This document shows, in pieces, positions 5,887-25,529 of a stretch of 64,000 nucleotides of DNA. The DNA is taken from contig NZ_CP016477.1 in NCBI RefSeq assembly GCF_001693275.1, positions 2,976,001 to 3,040,000 of the forward strand, read 5' to 3'. Below the pieces are notes generated by a model. The model was not told the DNA's origin. It saw nothing but the letters and a program-made list of their open reading frames with translations, and did not search any database. The translations under genes were made by a program, and so were the position numbers. How positions within the stretch are numbered: the first letter of the stretch is position 1; each line of letters opens with the position of its first letter. This stretch comes from Picosynechococcus sp. PCC 7117. GTDB lineage: Bacteria > Cyanobacteriota > Cyanobacteriia > Cyanobacteriales > MRBY01.

Positions 5887-7506
5887 CTAGCCATCCAGCA
5901 GCGCTTCAACAAATTCATAACTAGAGAAGGGCCGGAGATCTTCAATCCCTTCCCCAGCGCCGATAAAGCGAATTGGTAAACCGAGTTGTTGGCTCACCGC
6001 CAGAGCAACACCGCCCCGGGCCGTGCCATCTAATTTTGTCAGGACAACGCCACTGAGTTTTGCCGCTTCCGAGAAAACTTGGGCTTGCCGTAGACCATTT
6101 TGGCCGAGGGTTGCATCTAGGACTAAGAGGGATTCCACCTGGGCATCGGGAGCTTTTTTATCGACAATCCGCCGGATTTTCGCCAGTTCATCCATCAAGT
6201 TTTTCTTATTTTGTAAGCGGCCAGCCGTATCCACGAGCAAAATTTGTGCCTGCCGTGCTTGGGCGGCGGTAATACCATCAAAAACCACCGCTGCGGGATC
6301 AGTATTTTTACCGGGGTTGGCGATTACAGGAGTGTCAGTTCTTTCGCCCCAGACTTTTACCTGTTCGACGGCAGCGGCCCGGAAGGTATCAGCAGCAGCA
6401 ATGACGCAGCGATAACCCGATTGGTTGGCAAGGTGGGCCAGTTTACCGATGGTGGTGGTTTTACCGGCACCGTTGACGCCAGTGAGCATCCAGACATTGA
6501 GCTTGTCGGCTTCGGGAGCAAATTCGGTACTGGGTAATTTCGCCAGGGGTTTGTCGAGGATATCCCGGAGGATTTCTTTGAGATAGGTGATCGCCGCTTC
6601 GGGAGGCAGTGCTTCCTGGCGGAGTCGTTCCTGGAGGGTTTCGATAATGTAATCGGTGGCCTCAATGCCCACATCAGCCTGGAGTAGGAGCGATTCAATT
6701 TCTAAGACTGCTTCGTCATTGAGCGGCCCTTGACCCACCACAGCCTTGAGTTGATTGACCAAACTACGGCGGGTTTTACCGAGACCATCCCGGAGCTTTT
6801 TGAGCCATTCAATTTCTTCGAGGGAAATATCACTGGCATCACGGCCTTGATCAGCAAGCACCTTGGCAGACCAAAGGAAATTTTCGTCAAACTCTAGTCC
6901 TTCCGTATCGATCGCCGTTTCTTTGAGCTTTTCGAGGCCGTCGGACTTTTGCATCCAAGCAGGCGTTGCTGGGGTAGTTTCCGGTTCTGGTTCCGCTACT
7001 GTCTCGCTATCTGGGGTACTCTCTACTTCGGCAGCAATTACTTCCGGCTCTGGTTCTGGGGCAACGGGCGCGACGGTTGCGGCGGCTTCAACCTCGGTTG
7101 GTTCACTGTCTGGTTCTGGGGAAACTGCTTCTGCTGGGGCTTCCGGTTGAGGAGTAATTGCTTCGATTGTTTCTGGAGCCGTTTCTGGAGCTTCTGCCGT
7201 TGGTTCGGGGGCTGGTGTTTCTGGTTCAGTTTCAGCAGGCGTTGATTCTAGTTCTGGCTCCTGGGGTTCTGTGGCTTCAGGTTGAGGGGTCTCAGTTGTT
7301 TCAATACCCTTTTTTGCTTGGATATTTTTGTAAGCGGATTTCGCCCAGTTTAGGTAGTCAATTTCTGGGGTTGATGGCGTCTCAGGTTCGGGGGCAGCAG
7401 CTTCCTCCGTGGGGGATTCTGGCACCTGTTTTTCTGTAACGGTTGGTTCAGAGGTGTCTTGGGATTTGTCAGTTGTCTTGCGCCGGAACCAATCAAAAAT
7501 AGCCAC
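5887..7506 (-). CDS. ftsY: Signal recognition particle receptor FtsY
   Basis: FtsY docks ribosome-SRP complexes at the membrane during co-translational insertion. The 539 residues divide into an N-terminal tail of about 200 residues extremely rich in Glu, Pro, Thr and Ala, and a C-terminal NG domain. That domain holds GVNGAGKTTTIGKL (G1), AADTFRAAAVEQ, LLVDTAGRLQ (G3), LTKLDGTARGG (G4) and FIGAGEGIEDLRPF. The very N-terminus MAIFDWFRRK is a typical amphipathic membrane-targeting start. The acidic tail is longer than in many homologues and of low complexity, so its length will vary between strains. It is divergent from the S4-domain gene. Confidence 0.97.
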   Translation of the reverse strand: MAIFDWFRRKTTDKSQDTSEPTVTEKQVPESPTEEAAAPEPETPSTPEIDYLNWAKSAYKNIQAKKGIETTETPQPEATEPQEPELESTPAETEPETPAPEPTAEAPETAPETIEAITPQPEAPAEAVSPEPDSEPTEVEAAATVAPVAPEPEPEVIAAEVESTPDSETVAEPEPETTPATPAWMQKSDGLEKLKETAIDTEGLEFDENFLWSAKVLADQGRDASDISLEEIEWLKKLRDGLGKTRRSLVNQLKAVVGQGPLNDEAVLEIESLLLQADVGIEATDYIIETLQERLRQEALPPEAAITYLKEILRDILDKPLAKLPSTEFAPEADKLNVWMLTGVNGAGKTTTIGKLAHLANQSGYRCVIAAADTFRAAAVEQVKVWGERTDTPVIANPGKNTDPAAVVFDGITAAQARQAQILLVDTAGRLQNKKNLMDELAKIRRIVDKKAPDAQVESLLVLDATLGQNGLRQAQVFSEAAKLSGVVLTKLDGTARGGVALAVSQQLGLPIRFIGAGEGIEDLRPFSSYEFVEALLDG

Positions 7507-23448: not shown

Positions 23449-24834
23449 ATGGAGAAAATTGTGGCTGGGTACAAGGATCAGCTAACGGATCTGATCCAAC
23501 GGTACAAAAATCAAGTGGATTTTCTAGCGATTCGTTTGGAACAGTCAGCGGGGAGCAGTATTGTTTTGCGGTCAAATAAGATCGAGACCCTCAGTGAAAG
23601 TACCTCCCTTGGGGGCCAGGTGCGCGTTTGTCACAAGGGCGGTTGGGGGTTTGCGGCCTTTAATAATCTCGAAAATCTGCAGCTCCGGATCGAAGAGGCG
23701 ATCGCCGCCGCGATTTTAATCGGCGATGATGAAACACTTTTGGCTCCCATTGACCCAATCCAAGCGGTTTGCTCTTTACCCCTAAGCGGAAGCGACCCAC
23801 GCCACATTCCTTTACAGCGGAAAAAAGAATTATGCGATCGCTACAGTGATTTGCTCTTGAGCCAGAGCGGTAAGATTACCAGCACCAGGGTCAGTTACGG
23901 CGACAGTACCCAGCACATCATCTTGGCGACTTCAGAGGGCACCCTGATCGAACAGTCCTGGGTTGATCTAGAAATGCGTTTTTCCGCCACGGCCCGTGAT
24001 GGGGAAACGGTGCAAACCGGGCGGGAAACCACCGGTTCCCGCAAAGCCTACGAAGATCTAGAAAACCTCGATGAACAAGTTAAAGGCGCAGCCCAGCGGG
24101 CCGTTAACTCATTAACCCTCCCCACAGCCAAAGGCGGCACCTATACCGTTGTCATTGACCCCATTTTGACCGGGCTATTTGTCCACGAAGCCTTTGGGCA
24201 TCTCTCCGAAGCGGACATGGCCTATGAAAATCCCGATCTTCTCGAAACCATGAGCATGGGCCGACAATTTGGTGGGGAAGATCTCCAGATTTTTGATGGA
24301 GCCGCCCCAGTAGGCCATCGTGGTAGTTATCGATATGATGATGAAGGCGTTCCGGCTACCACGACCCAATTGATTCAAGATGGCAAACTTGTGGGCCGCC
24401 TCCATTCCCGCGAAACCGCTGGCAAGCTCGATGAAAAACCGACAGGCAACGCCCGCTGTTTGAACTATCACTATCCGCCCATTGTTCGCATGACCAACAC
24501 TTGGATCGAACGGGGTAAAACGCCCGTTGCCGACTTACCCACGGACATCAAAGAAGGGGTGTATGCGAAAAACTGGCTCGGTGGCATGACCAACGGTGAA
24601 ATGTTTACCTTTAGTGCCGGGGAAGCTTGGATGATCCGCGATGGCAAAATTGCTGAACCCGTCAAGGATGTCACCCTCTCTGGCAACGTCTTTAAAACCT
24701 TAAAAAATATTGAGGCGATCGCCGACGATTTTTACTGGGACGAATCCGGTGGTTGCGGCAAGGGAGGCCAAAGCGGTTTACCCGTCGGTTGTGGCGGCCC
24801 CTCCCTGCGCATTCGTGATGTCGTCGTCGGCTAA
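23449..24834 (+). CDS. tldD: TldD-family metalloprotease
   Basis: TldD acts with TldE (PmbA) as a zinc peptidase that opens unfolded peptides; here it may trim peptides or regulators, substrate unknown. The zinc motif HEAFGHLSEAD (HEXXXH) is present, as are GSYRYDDEGVPATTTQLI, NARCLNYHYPPIVRMTN, GGMTNGEMFTFS and the C-terminal GCGKGGQSGLPVGCGGPSLR. The ATG at 23449, preceded by AAGGGGAAGG, is preferred over the ATG at 23419, giving 461 residues. No tldE partner is adjacent. Repeat locus g begins at its stop codon. Confidence 0.93.
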   Translation: MEKIVAGYKDQLTDLIQRYKNQVDFLAIRLEQSAGSSIVLRSNKIETLSESTSLGGQVRVCHKGGWGFAAFNNLENLQLRIEEAIAAAILIGDDETLLAPIDPIQAVCSLPLSGSDPRHIPLQRKKELCDRYSDLLLSQSGKITSTRVSYGDSTQHIILATSEGTLIEQSWVDLEMRFSATARDGETVQTGRETTGSRKAYEDLENLDEQVKGAAQRAVNSLTLPTAKGGTYTVVIDPILTGLFVHEAFGHLSEADMAYENPDLLETMSMGRQFGGEDLQIFDGAAPVGHRGSYRYDDEGVPATTTQLIQDGKLVGRLHSRETAGKLDEKPTGNARCLNYHYPPIVRMTNTWIERGKTPVADLPTDIKEGVYAKNWLGGMTNGEMFTFSAGEAWMIRDGKIAEPVKDVTLSGNVFKTLKNIEAIADDFYWDESGGCGKGGQSGLPVGCGGPSLRIRDVVVG

Positions 24835-24835
24835 A

Positions 24836-24942
24836 CATCCTCCCTAGAGAGAGGTGGCCGAAGACTGGAGGATGTTCCGGCCCCCAAAAGATCCTCCCTT
24901 GAGGGAGGTGCCGAAGCCGGAGGGTGGTGTCCCTAGAGTGGA
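24836..24942 (-). repeat. Modular GC-rich palindromic repeat, locus g
   Basis: Two tandem units: ATCCTCCCTAGAGAGAGGTG with GAAGACTGGAGGATG, then ATCCTCCCTTGAGGGAGGTG with GAAGCCGGAGGGTG and the trailing GTGTCCCTAGAGTGG. Orientation as in loci b to e. It starts within a few bases of the tldD stop. Confidence 0.8.
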
Positions 24943-25025
24943 GAATGTTGAATTTTCAAAATGCTTGTGCCAGCATAAAGAGGTTCTACCGGATAAAACC
25001 TGCCGGAGAATAGGAGGTGATGCCC

Positions 25026-25097
25026 ATGAATGACAGTAGTAACAACATGGGTCTCACAGTTAAAGTAAATCGGCTGCGTGCCGGGGCTGTTCTCTAA
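25026..25097 (+). CDS. 23-codon upstream ORF (possible leader peptide)
   Basis: ATG at 25026 is preceded by AGGAGG with an 8-base spacing, a better ribosome site than those of most genes here. The peptide reads MNDSSNNMGLTVKVNRLRAG and then AVL before a TAA. An in-frame ATG at 25020 would be too close to the Shine-Dalgarno. The ORF runs through the 5' strands of the P1 and P2 helices of the structured RNA described below, so translating it would disturb that fold. No homologue is recognised. It may instead be fortuitous. Confidence 0.4.
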   Translation: MNDSSNNMGLTVKVNRLRAGAVL

Positions 25098-25234
25098 AAT
25101 TTTGCTTACTCTGCTGAGTAGGTTAAGAGAGTCGGAGTTCCTTCCGGCAGTCAGATTTTAACTAAAGAGACCCGACTAGACCGCCCTTGCTTCGTTATCG
25201 TAGAGATAACCCTAGTAAGGGCGGATAGTTTTTT
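25026..25234 (+). ncRNA. Structured leader RNA upstream of phhB (class unassigned; omega/HEARO-like?)
   Basis: A nested fold is visible. P1: 25049-25055 GGGTCTC with 25167-25173, extended by 25058-25064 AGTTAAA with 25157-25163. P2: 25074-25076 plus 25079-25084 (CTG, TGCCGG) with 25144-25149 plus 25152-25154. P3: 25091-25097 TCTCTAA with 25123-25130 (one bulge). P4: 25105-25111 CTTACTC with 25116-25122, loop TGCT. P5: a separate hairpin 25181-25188 CCGCCCTT with 25217-25224, containing GTTATC/GATAAC (25194-25199/25205-25210), followed by six T. The nesting of four helices and a terminator-like hairpin is hard to explain by chance. The general look recalls IscB-associated HEARO RNAs; this is from memory and untested. 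Confidence 0.6.
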
Positions 25235-25250
25235 AGAGGAGGTTTTCTCC

Positions 25251-25529
25251 ATGGCAACCCGATTGACCGACACCGAAATCCAAGCACAATTGAGTCAATT
25301 TCCTGAATGGTCAAAGGTTGATAACAAAATTCAACGCCGATTTAAGTTCAAAAACTTTATTGAGGCCATTGACTTTGTAAACAAACTCGTCGAACCGGCC
25401 GAAGCCGCCGACCATCACCCCGACATCGAGATTTCCTACAACAAAGTCACCGTAAACCTAACCACCCATGACGCTGGCGGCCTTACCCAAAAAGATTTTG
25501 ATCTCGCCGGAACTTTCGATCAACTGTAA
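25251..25529 (+). CDS. phhB: Pterin-4a-carbinolamine dehydratase
   Basis: A 92-residue pterin dehydratase, which recycles 4a-hydroxytetrahydropterin or, in organisms without aromatic amino acid hydroxylase, serves another pterin role. The active-site pattern EAADHHPDIEISYNKVTVNL and the C-terminal HDAGGLTQKDFDLA match the family. The Shine-Dalgarno GGAGG (25238-25242) is 8 bases before the ATG and could pair with CTCC just before the start codon. The long structured leader makes post-transcriptional control plausible. Confidence 0.94.
   Translation: MATRLTDTEIQAQLSQFPEWSKVDNKIQRRFKFKNFIEAIDFVNKLVEPAEAADHHPDIEISYNKVTVNLTTHDAGGLTQKDFDLAGTFDQL

Follow-up and report, generated by a model that had tools for sequence, protein, structure and literature searches.

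The tldD-phhB locus of Picosynechococcus sp. PCC 7117

The window, a 64,000-nucleotide stretch of the Picosynechococcus sp. PCC 7117 genome, contains a compact unit at positions ~25000-25235 of the + strand, located between tldD, which ends at 24834, and phhB (25251-25529, +). From 5' to 3', the unit opens with a brief leader that is conserved in relatives, followed by a strong Shine-Dalgarno (SD) sequence and a 23-codon ORF; then come a long hairpin (P1/P2), whose top is variable, and a hairpin resembling a terminator (P5). The long hairpin is built from the ORF sequence together with sequence 3' of the ORF. The ORF, SD, helices and P5 listed in a preliminary description of this DNA were all found where it had placed them.

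All of these features are read from the + strand. The leader (24985-25011) is conserved over ~30 nt, as judged from column conservation in 207 relatives anchored at the SD. The SD, AGGAGGTGAT (25012-25021), is a near-perfect complement of the 3' tail of the 16S rRNA, and GGAGGTGATG is nearly invariant among relatives. The 23-codon ORF (MNDSSNNMGLTVKVNRLRAGAVL and a stop codon) spans 25026-25097, and its start codon would be hidden by a predicted hairpin, H0 (25023-25051), in which CCCATG (25023-25028) pairs with CATGGG (25046-25051). In the long hairpin, P1 pairs 25049-25064 with 25157-25173 and P2 pairs 25074-25084 with 25144-25154, while the variable apical part contains a local hairpin, P4 (CTTACTC/GAGTAGG, 25105-25122). 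The terminator hairpin P5 (25181-25234) has arms at 25181-25191 and 25214-25224, followed by a run of six T at 25229-25234. The SD of phhB (25235-25242) starts directly after this T run, and no promoter-like site was found in the window between the T run and the phhB ribosome site. This lack of promoter room suggests read-through of P5, as in an actuaton (see below), and the phhB mRNA of this host probably arises in this way. Separately, a 24-nt repeat, AAACATCCTCCCTAGAGAGAGGTG, occurs twice between tldD and the element (24833-24910); its copies are 88% alike and have inverted arms.

Distribution and gene neighbourhood

The element is present as a single copy in its own genome and in all six sampled genomes (6/6) of the host's family. 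It was detected in 171 of the 196 sampled genomes of the order, covering 88 of 95 genera. When 386 genomes drawn from across the phylum were searched under strict filters with a covariance model derived from 69 relatives, 125 of them gave matches, with one match per genome among the matches listed. One relative, whose genome is 95% complete, carries a degenerate-looking copy, with the SD mutated to GCAGG and an altered P2 strand.

A short form of the element, first seen as weak matches, was found in a cyanobacterial family with small genomes (116/201 genomes, 38/59 genera), which probably corresponds to the marine picocyanobacteria. It encodes a peptide of the type (M/V)SxSCxxQGLLIAENAG and has a shorter P1. 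In some of these genomes a second weak match was observed.

Relatives were also detected in Chloroflexota. A DNA pattern consisting of the ribosome site, the start codon and GTAGTA was run on a collection of 84,980 species and gave at least 118 matches; among the matches listed, 111 were cyanobacterial, seven belonged to Chloroflexota (all seven named genomes being MAGs) and none was found elsewhere. A scan of 301 Chloroflexota genomes added six matches, and none was obtained with the reversed pattern. The Chloroflexota ORFs have 14-18 codons (MVDSSTKRSAAASLLNVG, MSDCSKRQGVTAGEAL and MNDSSHCSITEGLL) and are MxDSS-like, and their later codons are complementary to their own ribosome site. They are followed by a hairpin over the ORF end and then by an intact terminator, and their flanking genes are unrelated. 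The 5' domain of these sequences matched the cyanobacterial covariance model, with E values of 1e-9 in Oscillochloris and 9e-9 in two others. Part of this similarity is imposed by the search pattern; a common ancestry of the cyanobacterial and Chloroflexota forms is likely. Three of the Chloroflexota copies lie upstream of a gene for a methylmalonyl-CoA mutase-like B12-binding protein, named by eye from its sequence. A single match to the start pattern was also seen in a viral contig (IMGVR 3300016484_000735, 5898-5926); that contig gave no match to the covariance model.

The genes surrounding the element vary. Upstream neighbours in 161 loci include psbD (60), cobB (20), tldD (6) and glmU (3), and since tldD adjoins only those six copies, the idea of a RiPP precursor, derived from the tldD neighbour, was dropped. 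Downstream, 194 loci showed phhB (97), a porin gene (46), cysK (5) or none of these (46), and in 29 of 190 loci the first long downstream ORF is on the opposite strand. Where phhB is co-directional, it is found at a median of ~336 nt from the SD of the element. These mixed neighbours, together with the element's own terminator hairpin (canonical ACCGCYY...RRGCGGATAG form in 183 of 208 relatives), indicate that the element is a gene of its own; the proposal of a cis element specific to phhB is therefore not supported. An rRNA-operon neighbourhood, suspected from the position of many copies 300-500 nt from a contig end, was rejected, as no rRNA was found in 20 loci; the upstream gene, where readable, was often psbD.

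Fold and coding capacity of the element

The predicted folding energy of the region is -91.2 kcal/mol versus -67.6 +/- 4.8 kcal/mol in dinucleotide shuffles (z = -4.9), better than in 200 of 200 shuffles. Covariation was tested on a sequence-only alignment of 69 relatives with 26 scored P1/P2 pairs. In P1 and P2 together, 97.6% of the alignment cells are paired (99% in P2), and double changes occur in 16 of the 26 pairs (9/13 in P1 and 7/13 in P2), a number equalled by none of 500 shuffles. Doubly changed cells numbered 153 versus 42 in shuffles, and sliding the partner strand by one column nearly halved the pairing. The P1/P2 fold deduced from the alignment is thus strongly supported by compensatory changes.

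The preliminary description had drawn four coaxially nested helices followed by P5, and most of this model holds. P1 and P2 are upheld by covariation, and P5 and P4 are also real: P4 is paired in three of the closest relatives, with pairing-preserving changes, and is variable in length and sequence outside them. The exception is P3 as drawn (25091-25097/25123-25130), whose strands are complementary in this genome; reading of the alignment showed that this complementarity is lost outside the closest relatives. In P5, the sequence conservation of the arms (CTAGACCGC...GCGGATAG) goes far beyond the need of a terminator, while the loop is free to vary. A search of positions 24900-25300 against Rfam 15, at gathering and relaxed thresholds (E up to 5), gave no family match; THF, cobalamin, glnA and preQ1 riboswitches were among the models without a match, in agreement with the earlier impression that the element is unlike any of them.

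The ORF was surveyed in 210 distinct cyanobacterial elements, chosen by ribosome site and start only. It has 23-25 codons in 204 of them, which bears out the 23-codon ORF with near-perfect SD proposed at 25026; a further five terminate at codon 17, and one carries a frameshift. Most differences in length amount to three bases, so that the frame is kept, and all three stop codons are used (TAA 118, TAG 90, TGA 2), with ATG as the start in 216 cases and GTG in two. In column-shuffled alignments of 163 distinct 23-codon ORFs ~180 in-frame stops would be expected; the zero observed is partly due to selection, since only 23-codon ORFs entered this set, and for this reason the unselected 204/210 figure was relied on. 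Of the single-base codon changes in the same 163 ORFs, a proportion of 0.333 was synonymous, compared with 0.257 (p 0.036), a modest excess, which was not significant when codons 2-9 or 10-16 were taken alone. In 183 of 188 cases codon 3 specifies Asp or Glu, its third base being free to vary, and in the last seven codons variation is found mostly at third positions. Searches of Pfam and NCBIfam with the peptide found no model.

Other codons point to a constraint at the RNA level as well. Ser at positions 4-5 is encoded almost exclusively by AGT, and codons 10-16, in the middle of the ORF, vary with the helix, the peptide being free to change while the encoded base pairs covary. Both the coding and the RNA level are therefore under selection. 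Five Thermosynechococcus-type elements have an ORF that terminates at codon 17, indicating that the AGAVL end of the peptide is not essential; in these, a GTTGTTCTC-like sequence, which normally encodes AVL, persists beyond the stop. As had been pointed out, the ORF crosses the 5' strands of P1 and P2, so translation and folding must compete.

In H0 the start codon pairs with codons 7-9, and 96% of the cells are paired across relatives, although at least one pair is broken in several of them. No covariation of H0 was found across relatives, because the start codon, in one of its arms, is fixed. Its existence is predicted by folding with controls: the AUG had a predicted unpaired probability of 0.12 in the 5' 69 nt versus 0.53 in the full RNA, and a value of 0.10 for the native sequence rose to 0.43 when the order of codons 2-12 was shuffled and to 0.47 with codons taken from other genes of the window. 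Formation of H0 excludes that of the P1 foot (GGGTC), and vice versa, since both use the same GGG. A physiological role for this competition is proposed tentatively, at slightly less than an even chance. A pairing in cis of GTTCCTYCC with the SD was also considered in cyanobacteria and rejected, because it is not kept across relatives in the alignment.

Relation to known RNAs and proposed role

The element almost certainly belongs to the ncl0160 family, on a comparison made by published length, start and stop statistics rather than by sequence. According to the main text of Brenes-Alvarez et al. 2016 (PMC4734099), ncl0160 is an sRNA of Synechocystis PCC 6803 and Nostoc PCC 7120 with 83 homologs, transcribed as an sRNA and widespread in non-picocyanobacterial genomes. 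Its conserved peptide has 23-25 aa, always with a ribosome binding site, an ATG or rarely GTG start, and TAA (47), TAG (34) or TGA (2) stops (PMC4734099); the elements studied here show the same ORF lengths, starts and stop proportions. Unlike the present analysis, that main text gives one predicted fold (Fig. S2), with no mention of covariation, a start hairpin, or picocyanobacterial or Chloroflexota relatives. In the open literature searched, the name ncl0160 was not found beyond that paper, and no entry recognisable as the element was present in the accessible part of Voss 2009. The "new" element of the preliminary description is therefore, as a family, almost certainly a published one, while the covariation-supported fold, the start-codon hairpin H0 that excludes P1, the short form in the probable picocyanobacterial family and the 14-18-codon Chloroflexota relatives are new here.

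Other known systems share part of this layout. Actuatons, which are sRNA cassettes with read-through into the downstream gene, have been documented in cyanobacteria (Kopf et al. 2015, PMC5386190), and the present element resembles them as a discrete sRNA-like unit with a terminator directly before a sense gene that has no promoter space; it differs in that the same downstream gene is found in only half of the loci, and read-through is a prediction in its case. Like the dual-function coding sRNAs SgrS and SR1, it is a short RNA with a conserved ORF and a conserved structure, and coding and structural selection were both detected, although a dual function is putative; unlike them, it is not known to have a base-pairing target, and its own ORF supplies a strand of the main helix. 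In hok-type type I toxin mRNAs an early hairpin hides the start and later long-range pairing changes it. By analogy, H0 and P1 may act in a comparable order, although the peptide encoded here is polar, with no obvious membrane segment, unlike those of the hok type.

Several other explanations were weighed. The element could be a small mRNA made solely for a regulatory peptide, with P1/P2 merely stabilising the transcript or setting the translation level; the coding signature of the ORF and the motif M-x-(D/E)-S-S-x-x-(M/Q)-G, which can be recognised in cyanobacteria, in the short-form family and in Oscillochloris, speak for this, but codons 10-16 vary freely while their base pairs covary, and the C terminus has been lost in some lineages where the nearby RNA sequence persists, so that we regard it as unlikely. 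A trans-acting base-pairing sRNA, with, for instance, the 3' strand of P1/P2 or the CTAGACCGC...GCGGATAG hairpin as putative target sites and a secondary ORF, would account for terminator arms unusually conserved in sequence and for AGTAGT being conserved as RNA; conservation, however, is strongest at the SD and the start codon, which is what translation would lead one to expect, and this explanation is improbable.

Two further possibilities bear on the genomic context. That the element is a cis attenuator or leader of phhB, in which translation of the ORF decides on termination at P5, is suggested by the co-directional phhB downstream in 97 of the 194 loci, by the missing promoter room after P5 and by the actuatons of such layout documented in cyanobacteria (PMC5386190). 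A conserved association with the regulated gene nevertheless fails in the other half of the loci, the opposite-strand ORFs and the Chloroflexota copies, seen with no phhB alongside, point the same way, and no antiterminator is visible because P5 shares no strand with P1/P2; we consider this distinctly improbable. The mobile structured RNA suggested in the preliminary description is contradicted by the data and has hardly any standing: neighbours do differ between lineages, but nothing was found in its favour, the element occurs once per genome and is near-universal in the order, and searches of plasmid and phage collections gave no match.

It is very probable that the element is a coding sRNA in its own right, belonging to the ncl0160 family, and reasonably probable that this free-standing translated sRNA has competing H0 and P1 folds tied to translation. 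In such a small RNA gene, translated into a 23-residue peptide, H0 would form first, holding the very strong ribosome site and the start codon and hiding the start. The finished RNA would then build P1/P2, taking the GGG from H0 and helping to free the start, and a ribosome reading the 23 codons would have to unwind P1/P2, so that the folding state and translation may report on each other. The switch and the direction of its regulation are what we infer from these competing pairings. P5 would end the transcript, and leakage past it would probably supply phhB mRNA in this genome. More speculatively, and rather unlikely in our view, the element could be an ancient RNA switch, common to Cyanobacteria and Chloroflexota, for sensing translation initiation, with the peptide partly a by-product; a near-maximal SD and a short ORF of the MxDSS type, with the start-hiding strand contained in its codons, would fit a sensing role in which 30S supply sets the fold.

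The element is among the most widely conserved cyanobacterial small RNAs and is so far not represented by an Rfam model; the covariance model could be used by Rfam and annotation pipelines. With its fold, a testable competition between H0 and the long-range helix, and distant relatives, what had been an entry in a list becomes an object that can be mutated and measured.
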